Positions 9,889-63,546 of a stretch of 64,000 bases of DNA are shown here, one piece after another (position 1 is the stretch's first letter; every line of letters starts with the position of its first letter). The notes beneath the pieces were generated by a model, which worked only from the letters and a program-made list of their open reading frames with translations, made no database searches and was not told the DNA's origin. The position numbers and the translations under genes are program-made. Source of the stretch: Clostridiales bacterium. Lineage in GTDB: Bacteria > Bacillota > Clostridia > Saccharofermentanales > Saccharofermentanaceae. The stretch is from assembly GCA_017451265.1 (NCBI GenBank), contig JAFSPU010000006.1, positions 1-64,000 on the forward strand. The letters are read 5' to 3'.

Positions 9889-10113
9889 TTAGCAGCACTC
9901 TGCGTAAACTGTATAGTATTCAGCGATTGTTCTAAGCTGGCCGTTTACTTTAATCTGTCTGTATCTCTTACGGCGAATCTGTCTGCGTACAGGTGCAGCA
10001 TCTACTGAAGAAACTTCAGGCTCAGGGATTTCAGGAGTGATCTCAATCTGCTCGTCTTCTCCGCCGTTAACCATTTCCAAATCCTTAATGTCTAATGTTT
10101 TAGTGTTTTTCAT
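9889..10113 (-). CDS. Double-glycine leader peptide, candidate bacteriocin/signal peptide precursor (74 aa)
   Basis: The N-terminus MKNTKTLDIKDLEMVNGG has the ComC/class II bacteriocin leader layout: charged start, hydrophobic residues at -12, -7 and -4 (L, L, V) and GG at -2/-1. Such leaders are cut by C39-peptidase exporters. The predicted mature part of 56 residues starts EDEQIEITPE and continues with a basic run (RRQIRRKRYRQIK) and an aromatic tail ending ECC. Cys-Cys at the very end is unusual. AAGGAGAAC precedes the ATG. No exporter, modification enzyme or immunity gene is visible nearby. Controlled by the special promoter at 10161-10224. Confidence 0.72.
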   Translation of the reverse strand: MKNTKTLDIKDLEMVNGGEDEQIEITPEIPEPEVSSVDAAPVRRQIRRKRYRQIKVNGQLRTIAEYYTVYAECC

Positions 10114-10160
10114 TGTTTTGTTCTCCTTAGATATTAGTTAAGTTTGTTTCAACTGTCCGT

Positions 10161-10224
10161 ATTCTGACATTAAGCAAGGAGCAAACCAATGAGTAATATA
10201 AGCGTGTATTGTTGCTTATGCGAC
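10161..10224 (-). promoter_or_regulatory. Fixed-geometry promoter module A: -10, -35 and upstream inverted repeat
   Basis: Read on the minus strand: inverted repeat GTCGC-ATAA-GCAAC (10224-10211), 21 bp, TTGGTT -35 (10189-10184), 17 bp, CAGAAT -10 (10166-10161). The same arrangement with identical spacings occurs at 10724-10787 and 63332-63395. A weak -10 and an upstream palindrome point to an activator-dependent promoter. Confidence 0.6.
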
Positions 10225-10264
10225 ACTTTGACATAAATGTGTTGTTAAGAAAGGATTCACGCTG

Positions 10265-10384: not shown

Positions 10385-10651
10385 TTATTGCAAAGCGATT
10401 AACTCGCGAATCTCGGGCGGGAGACGTCTCTCAAGATCCGGGCTTAAGCGCCTGATCGGTACATCCTGACCGGACCGCTCCCTGAGCTCTCTTATGAGAT
10501 CTTCCACAGTTCGCCGGGGCATGTTTCCGCCTAACATCTGCTCTCTGAGACGCTGTTCGAGTAACTCCCTGATGTCGACTCTGTGATCAACCTCAGTGCC
10601 GCCTGTAACCTGCTCTAATTCCTTAGTATTCATCTTCTTATTCTTAGTCAT
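10385..10651 (-). CDS. Double-glycine leader peptide precursor (88 aa)
   Basis: MTKNKKMNTKELEQVTGG is a double-glycine leader like that of the peptide at 9889. The predicted mature part (about 70 residues) is rich in Arg, Glu and Leu (RELLEQRLREQM, TVEDLIRELRERSG, DLERRLPPEIRELIAL) and should be strongly helical and amphipathic, with no Cys. CGGAGGAAC in front of the ATG at 10651 sets the start; an upstream in-frame ATG at 10705 has no such site. Promoter module C lies upstream. With its neighbour it could form a two-peptide system, but no transport or immunity gene is in the window. Confidence 0.68.
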   Translation of the reverse strand: MTKNKKMNTKELEQVTGGTEVDHRVDIRELLEQRLREQMLGGNMPRRTVEDLIRELRERSGQDVPIRRLSPDLERRLPPEIRELIALQ

Positions 10652-10723
10652 TTTAAGTTCCTCCGTTTGTAAGTTTTGTTTGTAAGTCGTGTCTGTTATG
10701 TTCATGTCGTTGCAACTGATTGC

Positions 10724-10787
10724 ATTTTGTCATCGCCCGCTGCCGGTGCCAATAGATAATTTGTGCCCGTTATGTTGCTTAAGCAAC
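10724..10787 (-). promoter_or_regulatory. Fixed-geometry promoter module C
   Basis: Minus strand: GTTGC-TTAA-GCAAC (10787-10774, a perfect palindrome), 21 bp, TTGGCA -35 (10752-10747), 17 bp, CAAAAT -10 (10729-10724). Same spacings as modules A and B; drives the peptide gene 10651-10385. Confidence 0.6.
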
Positions 10788-10906
10788 GTATGGACGTGAG
10801 AGTGTGGATTTGCATTCAAATAAACCGAAGACAATCGTAAAAACTAAAGATTTCACAGAGCGTTCCGAACGTTGTATGATAGTGGCAGCGTAAAAGGACG
10901 GAACAG

Positions 10907-37982: not shown

Positions 37983-40900
37983 ATGGAGAAATTCAGCGTA
38001 AAGAAGCCTTTTACAGTACTTGTAGCAGTAATTGCGATTATTGCTCTCGGTGCTGTGTCCATAATGAAGCTCCCGCTGGACCTGCTCCCTGAATTCAGCC
38101 TTCCGTATCTCATTGTAATAACTGCATATCCGGGCGCCAGTCCTGAGAAGATAGAGGATCAGGTCACCGTGCCTATCGAGAATGCTCTCGGTACTGTAAA
38201 CGGCGTCGTGAATGTCACGTCGTCCAGTGCTGACAGTTATTCCATGGTTCAGCTTGAATTCGCAGATGACACCGACATGAACGTCGCGATGGTCCGTATC
38301 ACGAGCGCCCTCAATGAGCTGGAAAGTTCGCTCCCTGTCGGCTGCATGACTCCTAACATAATGGAGATCAGCCTCGATATGCTCGCGACAATGTACGTCG
38401 CAGTCGAGGTCGACGGCTACGATATCTATGAGCTCACCGACTTCGTTAATAACGATGTCGTTCCTTATATCTCCAGACAGAACGGCGTCGCCAGCATCAC
38501 GACTATCGGTATGGTCGAGAAGAGCATCCAGGTAGAGCTTAACCAGGACAAGATCGACGCGCTTAACGAGAGAATCTTAAGAGAGACCAACAGTTCTCTT
38601 GCCGATGCACAGGATCAGCTTGATGATGCACAGGAAGCACTCACAGATGCGCAGAACCAGCTTGATACCGCACAGAACAATTTCGGATCCATGATGTCCT
38701 CTGCGATCTTCTCGCAGATCGACGGTCAGGCGGAGGAGATCGCCGACGGCTTGAGGGGCGGCATCGATACTCTGGTGGAGAGACTCCAGCAGGTCGAGCA
38801 GGGCATGGGCGGCCTTCAGAATATGCAGAACACCGCGCTTAACGGCCTTCAGACCAGAGTCGACGGCGCGCGTTCCACCCTGGACAGAGCCACCACCACC
38901 ATGATCCTTGCGCGCAATGCGCTTAATGAATCACAGTCAATGTTAAGCCGTGCACAGGCGGCGCTCGAGCAGGCTGCCACAGACCCGAACTTCCCTCCGG
39001 AAGAGTACAACGCTCTCGTGGAGGCGGAGGCTGCAGCTGCGGCTAACCTCATTGCGGCGCAGCAGGCTTACGATGCAGCATCGGCAGAAGTCGCTGCGGC
39101 ACAGGCAGCTTTCGATGAAGCCAACCAGGCGCTCATCAGCGCGTCGCTCGAGCTTGCGGGCATCACTCCCCAGGAGATGACGACGCTCATTAACGACCTT
39201 AACGGCATCAGAAACAACTTCACACAGTCCAGAGGCAGCATCAACGGCTCTTCTGCCACAAGCCTCATCGACACCACCCGAGGCCTGTCATCACTCATGA
39301 CGCAGCTTTCAAATCTCATCGCGCGCGTCAGAGCCGCAGATCCCGCGGGCAGCCTCACCTCTCAGGTAAACAACCTCGAGTCACAGCTTACAAACTTAAG
39401 GGGAGTCGCAGATTCCATCCCTGATATCCTGAACGGACTTCAGTCTGCAGTTGGCGGCCTCACACAGGCTCAGCTTGATGCGGCAGTTCAGTTCTCCACA
39501 GCAGCAGTCGGTCTTTCTAACGCGCAGACAGCACTGGATCAGGCACAGGCCCAGTACGATGCGGCGCGTGAGACAGCGCTTGAGAGTGCCAACGCGGACG
39601 CACTCATCGATCCTGCAACACTCTCGCAGCTTATCTACGCACAGAACTTCTCGATGCCGGTAGGCTACATCGACGACGCCAACGACGAGTCGTGGCTTTT
39701 AAGAGTAGGCGAGGAGTTCTCGAGTGCCGAGGACATCGCCAACGCGCTTCTTATTGATAACGAGACGATCGGTACCGTCCGCCTTGAGGACATTGCCGAT
39801 ATCGCAGTCATCGACACTGCGGGCGACAGCTACACCAAGCTGAACGGCTCCGACGGCATCATCCTTTGTATTTTCAAGTCTTCAAGTGCCGGTACCAACG
39901 AAGTATCCGGTACCTGTAACGACGCTCTTGCCGAGCTGAGTGAACTCTATCCCGGATTCCACTCTATCAACCTCGTTGACCAGGGCGTTTATATCAACAT
40001 GATCATCGAGAGCGTATTCCAGAGTATGCTCGTCGGTGCTATCCTCGCTATCATAATCCTCGCGCTCTTCCTGAAGGACGTGAAGCCTACGATCGTAGTT
40101 GCCATCAGCATCCCGCTGTCAGTCCTGTTCGCCATCGTCCTCATGTACTTCACGGGACTTGAGCTGAACATGATGACGCTCTCGGGACTCGCGCTAGGTA
40201 TAGGAATGCTTGTAGATAACTCGGTCGTCGTAATGGAAAACATCTTCCGACTCATAGGCCGCGGTCTGCCTGCACCGAGAGCTGCCGTGCAGGGTGCGAA
40301 GCAGGTTAGAGGCTCCATCATAGCTTCTACGCTTACGACTATCTGCGTATTCTTCCCGGCAGTCTTCGCGAGAAGTATGGTAAGAACACTGATGTACCCT
40401 CTCGCGATGTCTATCAGCTACTGTCTCGTGGCATCGCTCATTATGGCGCTCACGGTAGTGCCTTCCTCGTGCAGCACGCTGCTGGCGAAGTCGAAGCCGA
40501 AGGAGCATAAGCTTTTCGAGAAGGTGCTGGATCAGTACGGCAAGTCCTTAAGGTGGTGCCTGTCACACAAGACGATACCGCTCACAGTTGCTGTCGGTCT
40601 GCTCGCGTTCACGATAATCATGGTATTCAGAACAGGTATCATCTACATCCCTGAAATCACCACGAACGAGTTGGCGATAACTATCACAACTCCTGAAGAG
40701 ATGACGCGCGAAGAGTCGTATGCCGCTGTCGACGAGGTCATGAATGAGATACTTGAAGTGGATGGCGTCGTAGATCTGGGAATTATGGATTCCAGCAGTT
40801 CATCGAGTTTCCTGATGGCGGGCATGTCTTCTGACGAATACGGAACTTACATGTGCTACGGTCTTGCCCCTGAGGGTTCATCTGCGGAACAGATGAGTAA

Positions 40901-42338
40901 TATCGCTGATGCGATAACGGAAGCGACAGCTGACTCTGTGTGCACGGTAGATGTATCTACAGCAAGTATGGGTAACGGCAATATGCTTTCCGGTACCACC
41001 GGTATCAGTGTTGTCATCTTCGGTGACGATTACGATCAGCTTAGAGCGATAAGCGCGAGTGTGTGCGCTATTATGGCTTCAGAGCCGGGGATCGTTGACG
41101 TAACTGACAGTTTCGCTGACGGTGAGCCGACGCTGCAGGTTGTCATCGACCGAGATAAGGCGATGGAGTACGGACTTACGGTAGCTCAGATCTATGCGGG
41201 CATCGCGAGCCACACATCTTCAAGCGTTGATGCAGTTAATATCACAGTTGACGGAACTGACATGACAGTAAGTATCGTGGATAACACGGACGAGCTTACA
41301 TACGAGAATCTGATGGATATCGAGTTCGAAGCAGTCGATATGACAGCTATGTCGAGCGGCATGTCAGGAAGCATGTCGGGAGGTTCAGCAAGCTCGTTCG
41401 CAGGAGCATCTTCCGGATCATTCGATTCGCTGGCAGCTATGTTCGGTGTTGATCTTGACGAGATGGAGCAGACCGAGGTCGATGATACAGTTGCGCAGGT
41501 CGAACAGAGCGAGGATGAAGAGGCGCCTAGCGTACATACTCTGTCTGAGTTCGCGACTGTCGTAGAGACTGAGACTTCCTCATCCATCAACAGAGAGAAC
41601 CTCGTAAGATATGTAACTGTCAGCTCATCTATGGCTGACGGATATAACGCTACACTCGTGTCAAGAAGCCTCGAGCCCAGGATCGAAGAATTCAGCAGAA
41701 CACTTCCTGACGGATACACCGTAGAGCTCTCCGGTGAGTCAGAGCAGGTTAACGACCTCGTTAAGCAGATGCTTGAGATGGCGGCGCTCGCACTGCTGTT
41801 TATCTACCTCGTAATGGTAGCGCAGTTCCAGAGCCTCCTGTCACCGTTCATTATCCTGTTTACTATCCCTCTCGCATTCACGGGCGGTATGATCGGACTC
41901 CTTGTTACAGGAGAGCCGCTGTCTATGCTGTCGATGCTGGGCTTCGTTATCCTGATGGGTACCGTAGTTAATAACGGTATTGTATTCGTAGACTATACGA
42001 ACCAGCTTAGAATCGGAGGCCTCGAGAGGCGCGAGGCGCTCGTCGCGACAGGCCAGACGAGAATGAGACCTATCCTCATGACGGCACTGACGACAATCCT
42101 TGCCATGTCCATGATGATCATAGGTACGGGTATGGCTTCTCAGCTCGGTAAGGGCATGTCCATCGTTATCGCAGGCGGTCTTCTGTATGCGACACTCATG
42201 ACGTTGTATATCGTGCCTATCATGTACGATATCCTGTTCAAGCGCCCGCCGGTCAACGTCGATGTCGGCAGCGACACAGACGAAGCGATCGACGATGCTG
42301 CAGAGTATCTTGAGAAGATGGGACTTGAGAAGTCTTAA
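37983..42338 (+). CDS. RND-superfamily efflux transporter with large coiled-coil insertion (1451 aa)
   Basis: HAE1/AcrB-like permease. Typical N-terminus KKPFTVLVAVIAIIALGAVS, and LDLLPEFSLPYLIVITAYPG, GIGMLVDNSVVVMENIFRLI (membrane Asp for proton relay) and VILMGTVVNNGIVFVDYTNQ. Twelve membrane segments are expected. An insertion of about 330 residues (about 205-540) in the first outer loop is made of Ala/Gln/Leu heptads (AQDQLDDAQEALTDAQNQL) and should form long coiled coils. AcrB-type pumps normally use a separate membrane-fusion protein; none is encoded here, and the insertion might replace it. Substrate unknown. Single-gene unit. Confidence 0.85.
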   Translation: MEKFSVKKPFTVLVAVIAIIALGAVSIMKLPLDLLPEFSLPYLIVITAYPGASPEKIEDQVTVPIENALGTVNGVVNVTSSSADSYSMVQLEFADDTDMNVAMVRITSALNELESSLPVGCMTPNIMEISLDMLATMYVAVEVDGYDIYELTDFVNNDVVPYISRQNGVASITTIGMVEKSIQVELNQDKIDALNERILRETNSSLADAQDQLDDAQEALTDAQNQLDTAQNNFGSMMSSAIFSQIDGQAEEIADGLRGGIDTLVERLQQVEQGMGGLQNMQNTALNGLQTRVDGARSTLDRATTTMILARNALNESQSMLSRAQAALEQAATDPNFPPEEYNALVEAEAAAAANLIAAQQAYDAASAEVAAAQAAFDEANQALISASLELAGITPQEMTTLINDLNGIRNNFTQSRGSINGSSATSLIDTTRGLSSLMTQLSNLIARVRAADPAGSLTSQVNNLESQLTNLRGVADSIPDILNGLQSAVGGLTQAQLDAAVQFSTAAVGLSNAQTALDQAQAQYDAARETALESANADALIDPATLSQLIYAQNFSMPVGYIDDANDESWLLRVGEEFSSAEDIANALLIDNETIGTVRLEDIADIAVIDTAGDSYTKLNGSDGIILCIFKSSSAGTNEVSGTCNDALAELSELYPGFHSINLVDQGVYINMIIESVFQSMLVGAILAIIILALFLKDVKPTIVVAISIPLSVLFAIVLMYFTGLELNMMTLSGLALGIGMLVDNSVVVMENIFRLIGRGLPAPRAAVQGAKQVRGSIIASTLTTICVFFPAVFARSMVRTLMYPLAMSISYCLVASLIMALTVVPSSCSTLLAKSKPKEHKLFEKVLDQYGKSLRWCLSHKTIPLTVAVGLLAFTIIMVFRTGIIYIPEITTNELAITITTPEEMTREESYAAVDEVMNEILEVDGVVDLGIMDSSSSSSFLMAGMSSDEYGTYMCYGLAPEGSSAEQMSNIADAITEATADSVCTVDVSTASMGNGNMLSGTTGISVVIFGDDYDQLRAISASVCAIMASEPGIVDVTDSFADGEPTLQVVIDRDKAMEYGLTVAQIYAGIASHTSSSVDAVNITVDGTDMTVSIVDNTDELTYENLMDIEFEAVDMTAMSSGMSGSMSGGSASSFAGASSGSFDSLAAMFGVDLDEMEQTEVDDTVAQVEQSEDEEAPSVHTLSEFATVVETETSSSINRENLVRYVTVSSSMADGYNATLVSRSLEPRIEEFSRTLPDGYTVELSGESEQVNDLVKQMLEMAALALLFIYLVMVAQFQSLLSPFIILFTIPLAFTGGMIGLLVTGEPLSMLSMLGFVILMGTVVNNGIVFVDYTNQLRIGGLERREALVATGQTRMRPILMTALTTILAMSMMIIGTGMASQLGKGMSIVIAGGLLYATLMTLYIVPIMYDILFKRPPVNVDVGSDTDEAIDDAAEYLEKMGLEKS

Positions 42339-62421: not shown

Positions 62422-63282
62422 TCAGAATCCGTAGTAAGCGCAGAGGTTAGTGAAGTTTGTCTGAGCTTCGAATGTCTGAATGAGCTGAGCTCTTGTCATT
62501 CCGTTGTTAAGAGCGTTAACCCAGTTGTTGAGGCCCTGTGTGTCAGGCTCTCTGTCGAGAAGTGCACGGTAGCAAGCTGTTACGAATGCCTTGTTGTCAG
62601 GATTCTTAGCGTTGCACTCATCGCTTCCGAGGATAGTAGCTGCAACCTGAGCGGGTGTCATTGTGCCGTTGATGATTGCGTTGGCGTACTGGTCTCTGGA
62701 AGGAATATCAACTGTTCTGCCGATGCCGATGTTGTACAGTCTCTCGATGTAGTTGTTGATAACGAGTCTTCTTACGGAGAGTGCATCCTGGTTGCGGCTT
62801 GTGGCGTAGATTGTACCGATGTTGCCGGCTGTTGCCCAGGAGATCGTCATTGCTGTAGAAACGTTGCCGCCGTTAGTTCCAAGTACGAAATCGGGAGCTG
62901 CGTTGGTATCGATCGGGATGCCTGCGAGTGTGGACTCAGCTACGCGGAGTGCGATACGAAGATCGGAACTTGCCTGTGTTACTGCCTGAAGGTCATCGCT
63001 GTCGAGAACCTTGAATGCGTTATCTCTGGCGCTCTCGAGACAGATCCTTACGTCGTTGGGAAGTTCATTGTAGTGGATTCCCAGGAAAGCTGTGGAAGAA
63101 TCGTAAACGTTGAGGAAGTATGTGCGTGTAGCGTCATCAACGTTAGCTGTCTGAGATGCTGTTGTCTTTGTCATTGTAGCTGCTCTGGATGTCATCGCTG
63201 TGAGCGGAAGTACCGAAGTAGCGAGTGCAATCGAAAGGATGATTGCGGGGAAAGTAGTCTTAATAGATGTTGTGTTTTTCAT
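62422..63282 (-). CDS. Secreted DUF4214 protein (286 aa)
   Basis: Signal peptide of about 35 residues (IILSIALATSVLPLTAMTSR). The middle (about 45-140) is helical and polar. The C-terminal DUF4214 part (about 165-286) has YIERLYNIGIGRTVDIPSRD, AATILGSDECNAKNPDNKAF and VTACYRALLDREPDTQGLNN, ending WVNALNNGMTRAQLIQTFEA. DUF4214 occurs in secreted and surface proteins; its role is not established. AGGAGG eight bases before ATG 63282 favours it over ATG 63288. Transcribed from promoter module B, the same kind as the two double-glycine peptides. Confidence 0.78.
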   Translation of the reverse strand: MKNTTSIKTTFPAIILSIALATSVLPLTAMTSRAATMTKTTASQTANVDDATRTYFLNVYDSSTAFLGIHYNELPNDVRICLESARDNAFKVLDSDDLQAVTQASSDLRIALRVAESTLAGIPIDTNAAPDFVLGTNGGNVSTAMTISWATAGNIGTIYATSRNQDALSVRRLVINNYIERLYNIGIGRTVDIPSRDQYANAIINGTMTPAQVAATILGSDECNAKNPDNKAFVTACYRALLDREPDTQGLNNWVNALNNGMTRAQLIQTFEAQTNFTNLCAYYGF

Positions 63283-63331
63283 TTTCATGTCCTCCTTAAT
63301 TCGATTAGTTTGTTTAACCTATCGTGGCTTT

Positions 63332-63395
63332 ATGTTGCCATGGATTAAGGGCGCAACCAATGTGCAGATAAAGTGCCGTGTGTCGCTTTTTCGAC
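63332..63395 (-). promoter_or_regulatory. Fixed-geometry promoter module B
   Basis: Minus strand: GTCGA-AAAA-GCGAC (63395-63382, inside the longer GTGTCG/CGACAC palindrome), 21 bp, TTGGTT -35 (63360-63355), 17 bp, CAACAT -10 (63337-63332). Spacings equal those of modules A and C. Confidence 0.6.
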
Positions 63396-63546
63396 ACGCC
63401 CGGGGGAGTATGTCGCTTAATGAACACAAAACGTGATAATTGTCCGTGAATATTTGTCTGTAACGCCATGTAGAAGCCTGGTCTATATTTATTTCTAATA
63501 TGCTATTATTACGCGTGCATTAAAAAAGAGTCATGGAGGACAGTGA

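Follow-up and report, generated by a model that had tools for sequence, protein, structure and literature searches.

In uncultured rumen bacteria, double-glycine peptides and bacteriocins have so far been counted in genomes. Rgg-type regulators would be expected for such genes, as would two-component systems. DhaS (TIGR02366, PDB 2iu5), the activator of the dihydroxyacetone kinase operon, has the same Pfam pair (TetR_N and TetR_C_8) as the candidate regulator described below. According to PMC2628434, LuxR of Vibrio harveyi is a TetR-type quorum-sensing master regulator. The site of ComA of Bacillus subtilis (PMC4797271) shares with the present promoters an inverted repeat with a 4-nt spacer, a location upstream of the promoter, and an additional element.

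Three promoters of the window and their target genes

The window is the whole 64,000-nt stretch of DNA that was analysed (G000:C14:1-64000); it belongs to a genome of 1.96 Mb in 15 contigs that is 69.5% complete. An earlier note had placed an inverted repeat, a -35 element, and a -10 element at three positions on the minus strand, with exactly equal spacings of 21 and 17 bp. Direct reading confirmed all three: GTCGCATAAGCAAC-N21-TTGGTT-N17-CAGAAT at 10224-10161 (promoter 1), GTTGCTTAAGCAAC-N21-TTGGCA-N17-CAAAAT at 10787-10724 (promoter 2), and GTCGAAAAAGCGAC-N21-TTGGTT-N17-CAACAT at 63395-63332 (promoter 3). The ORFs 3' of the sites agree with the genes that had been taken as controlled, i.e. 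two double-glycine leader peptides and a secreted DUF4214 protein. The predicted start reads CA in all three promoters. The features are as follows.

10240..10244, minus strand: promoter 1, upstream half-site CAACA
10210..10225, minus strand: promoter 1, operator palindrome TGTCGCATAAGCAACA
10184..10197, minus strand: promoter 1, ATTACTCA and -35 TTGGTT
10161..10166, minus strand: promoter 1, -10 CAGAAT (predicted start A at 10154, in CA)
9889..10113, minus strand: target 1, 74-aa double-glycine leader peptide (...LEMVNGG)
10803..10807, minus strand: promoter 2, upstream half-site CCACA
10773..10788, minus strand: promoter 2, operator palindrome CGTTGCTTAAGCAACA
10747..10760, minus strand: promoter 2, ATTATCTA and -35 TTGGCA
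10724..10729, minus strand: promoter 2, -10 CAAAAT (predicted start A at 10717, in CA)
10385..10651, minus strand: target 2, 88-aa double-glycine leader peptide (...LEQVTGG; TIGR01847 bacteriocin_sig, 17.2 bits, cut-off 15.7)
63411..63415, minus strand: promoter 3, upstream half-site CGACA
63381..63396, minus strand: promoter 3, operator palindrome TGTCGAAAAAGCGACA
63355..63368, minus strand: promoter 3, TCTGCACA and -35 TTGGTT
63332..63337, minus strand: promoter 3, -10 CAACAT (predicted start A at 63325, in CA)
62422..63288, minus strand: target 3, 288-aa secreted protein with DUF4214 (PF13946, 71.5 bits, cut-off 23.2)

Elsewhere in the window (37983-42338, plus strand), a 1451-aa RND (AcrB-type) permease was noted, with matches in three separated stretches; the genome is of Gram-positive type.

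Architecture of the site and composition of the regulon

In the whole window genome, the self-complementary core GTYGMWWWWKCRAC was found at 14 sites, versus 0 for a reversed control pattern, which places it above chance. Exactly 21 bp downstream of the palindrome, in one orientation, stood TTGG in 12/14 cases and TTGC in 1/14; the fourteenth palindrome (G000:C10:73204) had neither at +21. Each of the 13 spaced sites is closely followed by a gene that has a ribosome-binding site. These 13 sites aligned almost gap-free and were used to train a sequence-only model. At E<1e-3, this model returned 24 matches in the window genome, 11 of them outside the training set; the two weakest (C5:113912 and C10:395917) had a degenerate palindrome or no TTG. 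When the scan was extended to relatives, matches at E<=0.01 were obtained in 38 of 85 same-genus genomes and none in the other 47, although these counts are rough, as filters were strict and some reverse-strand readings of the palindrome were included. The count of the bare palindrome was near that of the control in most of 59 relatives' genomes; the exception was G030 (14 vs. 0).

The logo of 72 distinct promoters from the 38 genomes reads TGTYGC-TTAA-GCRACA, ATTRMTSA, TTGGTT, and TG-n-(T/G)(A/T)(T/A)AAT, followed by YR seven bases past the -10 and an A-rich leader. The inverted repeat of the earlier note is thus present, but its extent had to be revised: the palindrome spans 16 bp and is accompanied by an upstream half-site (TAAnCRACAC in the logo, -20..-15 from the palindrome start), whose CRACA lies 30 bp upstream of the palindrome's right arm. 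The model columns end at the -10, and the half-site therefore falls outside the model; its ACA nevertheless stood at the fixed place in 12/13 of the genome's own promoters and in 64/73 promoters of the genus. Among the same 73, the -35 contained TTG in 71 and TTGG in 54, TG preceded the -10 in 48, and YR occupied the predicted start, 7 nt past the -10, in 70. This position is in keeping with the 6-8 bp that the earlier note expected between the -10 and the start. A strict CARMAT -10, as first proposed, was too narrow, since CATAAT, GATAAT, TTTAAT, TTAAAT, and CANAAT were also seen. Counted from the R of YR as +1 (the predicted start), the -10 spans -12..-7 and the -35 spans -35..-30; the palindrome is centred on -63.5, and the half-site occupies -90..-86. 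The suggestion that the palindrome is in an activator-like place is supported. The promoter is of the sigma-A type, with an upstream operator where an activator would stand, and we infer activation.

All three window promoters are members of a single regulon, which numbers about two dozen promoters in this rumen-type bacterium. A called downstream gene was available for 69 of the 73 promoters surveyed, and a rule-of-thumb script classed these targets as 23 double-glycine peptides, 20 Sec-type proteins, 5 lipoproteins, 1 polytopic protein, and 20 others. The downstream genes share a character: 48/69 were exported-like, compared to 34/245 other ORFs (at least 80 aa) from the same stretches. In the window genome, the fraction was 16/22. 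DUF4214 was present in five tested targets. On contigs C12 and C14, 7/7 motif-found double-glycine ORFs lay behind a site, one of them as second gene, C12 having been chosen for reading because it carries sites. An AMP-binding gene stood behind a site in a Ruminococcus-type genome (L400) and also in the window genome:

G000:C12:40853-43792 (L021 end 2793), minus strand: NRPS-type target with AMP-binding and Condensation domains, behind a regulon promoter

The idea of a small export regulon under one regulator was thus borne out as to the single site, the single architecture, and the exported products, but not as to size, because there are 24 model matches in a genome that is 69.5% complete. 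No sign of the cell-density control suggested in the earlier note was seen.

Two near-identical tandem cassettes were observed at G000:C12:53964-56711 (L021); in each, the regulon promoter is followed by an ORF for a double-glycine peptide (98 aa in one, 95 aa in the other) and by another ORF. A 48-aa target peptide at G000:C1:728-600 (L015), MKSLMKSKKGMCLIEMVLVVAIICILA, resembles by look the N-terminus of a type IV prepilin in truncated form, and G030 (L093) has a comparable 44-aa peptide behind a site.

A TetR-family candidate regulator and its alternatives

A scan for genes recurring by the sites found a TetR homologue near them in four genomes. The homologue of the window genome is on another contig:

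G000:C12:34502-35083 (outside the window), 193 aa: TetR gene, TetR_N and TetR_C_8

Its product exceeded the cut-offs for the helix-turn-helix domain PF00440 (TetR_N; 30.6 bits, cut-off 24) and for PF14278 (TetR_C_8; 50.3 bits, cut-off 26.1), a C-terminal ligand/dimer domain. The best NCBIfam model was DhaS (TIGR02366), with 51.2 bits against a cut-off of 129; hence, the protein is no DhaS equivalog. The nearest solved chain was 4mk6 (8.8e-18), and DhaS itself (2iu5) scored 1.9e-6.

Candidate families were tested for co-occurrence with the sites across the 85 same-genus genomes. TetR orthologues were defined by E<1e-50, for which 33 genomes qualified. The earlier note had called for a co-conserved regulator gene, and TetR answers to that description: it was found in 31/38 site-bearing versus 2/47 site-less genomes (Fisher 3.4e-14). 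With a threshold of three matches, the figures were 28/34 and 5/51; in the genomes at least 90% complete (n = 46), they were 18/19 and 2/27. Both traits change often (15 and 16 times) on an AlaRS tree, which covers 80/85 genomes (five had no AlaRS match) and may not equal the species tree. Of the independent pairs, 12 differ in TetR; among them, the sites changed in concert in a mean of 7.8 and in the opposite direction in 0.0 (p 0.008). In 8 pairs differing in sites, the corresponding figures for TetR were 7.3 and 0.0 (p 0.016). This TetR-type protein, whose presence among relatives follows that of the promoters, is probably their activator.

The TetR orthologue was missing in seven site-bearing genomes (G063, G067, G068, G026, G004, G101, and G092), the last of which is 99% complete and has 8 site matches. 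All seven also lack the C39 peptide exporter, so a single shared deletion or an assembly gap might explain them. No site was found in G074 and G085, which have a divergent TetR orthologue with the helix ADVNRVTF in place of ADINR[G/A/T]TF; G076, with the same helix, gave one weak site match.

A site divergent from the TetR gene was located 108-134 bp upstream of the start codon in G104, G072, and G030; TetR may thus control itself or a neighbour. The homologous place in the window genome (C12:34314-34388) holds a degenerate site, GTCGGAAAAGCAAC-N21-TTGGTT-N17-TTATAT (E 0.125). A site within 150 bp of the gene was found for only 3 of the 32 orthologues examined, and in the second clade most site-bearing genomes gave no site upstream of it.

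A GTDB scan with the TetR alignment returned 297 relatives, 80 of which were kept. These were records of Saccharofermentans, Ruminococcus (R. flavefaciens MC2020 and YRD2003, Ruminococcus sp. YE71), Ruminiclostridium, and Lachnospiraceae, mostly rumen MAGs, with the window's genus included. The model matched at E<=0.1 in 34/80 TetR loci. In 17 of these 34, the match was at most 350 bp from the TetR gene, compared to 4.9 expected by uniform placement; this count used 52/67 rows, the 15 omitted being mostly reverse-strand readings of sites already listed, with a few partial ones (L358, L355, and L320), and all of them from loci that the count includes. Ruminococcus-type sites by TetR genes kept every spacing and also the upstream half-site (often GCTACA), and their operators mostly had the half-site TGTAGC in cases with a V in the recognition helix. 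A second model (R2) was built on 17 such sites. Its weaker rows were mostly the plain promoter half, and only palindrome-covering matches were used; these occurred in 13/13 genomes searched, 7 of which had given no training sequence. By reading, the Ruminococcus-type targets included secreted proteins, lipoproteins, one double-glycine peptide, peptides of 31-34 aa, and the AMP-binding gene. The gene order at L346 (goat rumen, RGIG3635) was C39 ABC, second ABC, TetR, site, and a short leader-like ORF that is truncated where the contig ends. A Nif11-leader reading of the L346 and L314 peptides was withdrawn to "leader-like" after no Pfam match was obtained.

Within about 120 bp at L361:8888-9010, the palindrome recurs several times, in either orientation; this cluster is about 0.8 kb downstream from the TetR gene.

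Of 86 loci examined, 26 (23 of them distinct) had a site no more than 450 bp from a TetR gene; for these, the recognition helix was compared to the operator, using residue x in NRxTFY and base 4 of the half-site TGTn. Residue x opens the segment that aligns with the recognition helix, which is helix 3 in MtrR (PMC8053128). Where x was G or A (10 distinct loci), the outer base was A in 1/20 half-sites; where x was V (13 distinct loci), it was A in 20/26. RGIG3635 has two TetR genes with a matching operator each, NRA with TGTTGTATTAGCGACA (L317) and NRV with TGTAGCTTAAACTACA (L346). The covariation is contradicted by L339 and by L325, where x is V but the outer A is missing. Helix and operator changed about three times on the TetR tree, and the supported pairs agreed (2/2 in most draws); with so few changes, the covariation is not significant by itself.

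We consider it likely that a TetR-type activator at -63.5, with a helper half-site at -90, serves a secretion regulon. A TetR dimer (TetR_N and TetR_C_8) would bind the palindrome TGTYGC-TTAA-GCRACA, centred at about -63.5, and also the single half-site at about -90..-86; the palindrome and the helix/operator covariation agree with dimer binding. Bound TetR would recruit sigma-A RNA polymerase to promoters whose -35 (TTGG or TTGT) departs from the consensus. The genes thereby switched on would mostly encode exported products: double-glycine leader peptides, proteins secreted by Sec (several of them with DUF4214), and lipoproteins, together with the NRPS-type gene. An NHLM-type two-ABC peptide exporter accompanies them in many of these genomes, often close to the TetR gene. 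This account starts from the architecture, the regulon, the co-occurrence, and the gene position, which were observed directly; it adds presumed binding by TetR, presumed activation rather than repression, and a presumed signal.

The C39/NHLM exporter also co-occurs with the sites (26/38 site-bearing vs. 6/47 site-less genomes, Fisher 1.3e-7) and with TetR (26/33 TetR-bearing vs. 6/52 TetR-less genomes), and in the fetched stretches it was close to the TetR gene in 10/19 genomes. Together with the seven site-bearing genomes that have no TetR gene, these observations would suit another regulator binding the palindrome, with TetR as a member or passenger of a mobile export module that answers, for example, to the exporter. 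We regard this as unlikely, because the sites are tracked better by TetR than by the exporter, they flank the TetR gene in genera with no exporter seen in the locus, and helix and operator vary together.

TetR might instead bind the site as a repressor that is relieved by a ligand. Most TetR-family proteins are repressors, and the Ruminococcus-type core promoters are near consensus (TTGAAA, TATTAT), such that less is asked of an activator; both points favour repression. However, 21 bp separate the palindrome from the -35 downstream of it, which places the palindrome outside the core promoter and in one fixed helical place, the non-consensus -35 is conserved in the window's genus, and the activator DhaS is among the closest named relatives of the TetR protein. 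Repression thus seems a little less probable than the passenger role.

A LytTR quorum regulator of the Agr/ComE type, as in many double-glycine bacteriocin regulons, is improbable. LytTR genes occur in 83/85 genomes, for which reason their presence does not discriminate, and a candidate Agr-like locus is found at the start of contig C12 (G000:C12:120-2090, L085; AgrB-like, GHKL-kinase-like, and LytTR-like ORFs by reading). LytTR sites are direct repeats, though, whereas the present site is an inverted repeat and its logo contains no direct repeat. A LuxR/NarL-type response regulator like ComA, whose site (TTGCGG-N4-CCGCAA and a further element; PMC4797271) resembles the present one in its N4-spaced inverted repeat and its additional element, was rejected as most improbable, because GerE is absent from 23/38 site-bearing genomes, is commoner in site-less (34/47) than in site-bearing ones (15/38), and is lacking in G100 and G102, which are site-rich at 97% completeness.

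Three other candidates were discarded. The 16-bp geometry fits a CRP-type class I activator, but full-length CRP (E<1e-9 to PF13545; weaker short matches occur in 84/85 genomes) was found in 4/38 versus 6/47 genomes. A LysR-type regulator, with a palindrome at about -65 and a -35 element, would follow the operator rule T-N11-A, and the even palindrome is without it. The XRE-zinc ribbon neighbour of the TetR gene, the one protein compared with the sites that bears on an Rgg/RRNPP-type regulon, showed no association (30/38 vs. 30/47, p 0.16).

As an extension of the TetR-activator reading, the TetR_C_8 protein could answer a signal that its own regulon makes or exports, which would make this a self-sensing secretion regulon in rumen Clostridia; we find this doubtful. 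If true, either a double-glycine peptide, once exported, or whatever the NRPS-type target makes would serve as the signal, co-induced with peptide export and secreted DUF4214 proteins. There would then be a quorum-type TetR activator of double-glycine peptides, acting on a fixed three-half-site platform common to Saccharofermentans-type and Ruminococcus-type bacteria.

Comparison with known systems

In the open-licence literature, no description was found of the operator, of the three-half-site platform, of TetR control of double-glycine peptides with NHLM export, or of TetR-activator control of NHLM/NHLP export. The present result gives the exported small proteins of uncultured rumen bacteria a DNA address, together with a candidate regulator and a list of targets. 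If the TetR-activator reading is right, the regulator model predicts more members in any genome that bears the TetR gene, and each pairing of operator and helix offers a ready-made mutant for work on specificity.

ComA targets include exported products, as here. ComA differs in being a response regulator with GerE, and its extra element is a direct repeat located downstream (PMC4797271). In the C6:42995 region (L165) of the window genome, both ABC subunits pass the cut-offs of the NHLM/NHLP export systems described in PMC2887384 (TIGR03796, 862.8 > 853.3; TIGR03797, 713.4 > 709.4). Unlike in those systems, the HlyD-like third protein is short and below the TIGR03794 cut-off (27.1 vs. 156.2 for the 144-aa protein of G030); two target peptides tried as NHLP/Nif11 gave no Pfam match.

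The C-terminal family of Vibrio harveyi LuxR differs from that of the window genome's TetR, and V. harveyi is Gram-negative, unlike the bacterium of the window. The likeness is that of a TetR-type activator over a regulon (PMC2628434). Compared to DhaS, the TetR protein of the window genome has no seen role in a Dha operon, many dispersed targets, and a different operator. TetR activators as such are already known; the present system, if the reading is right, would add one where two-component and Rgg-type control is expected.
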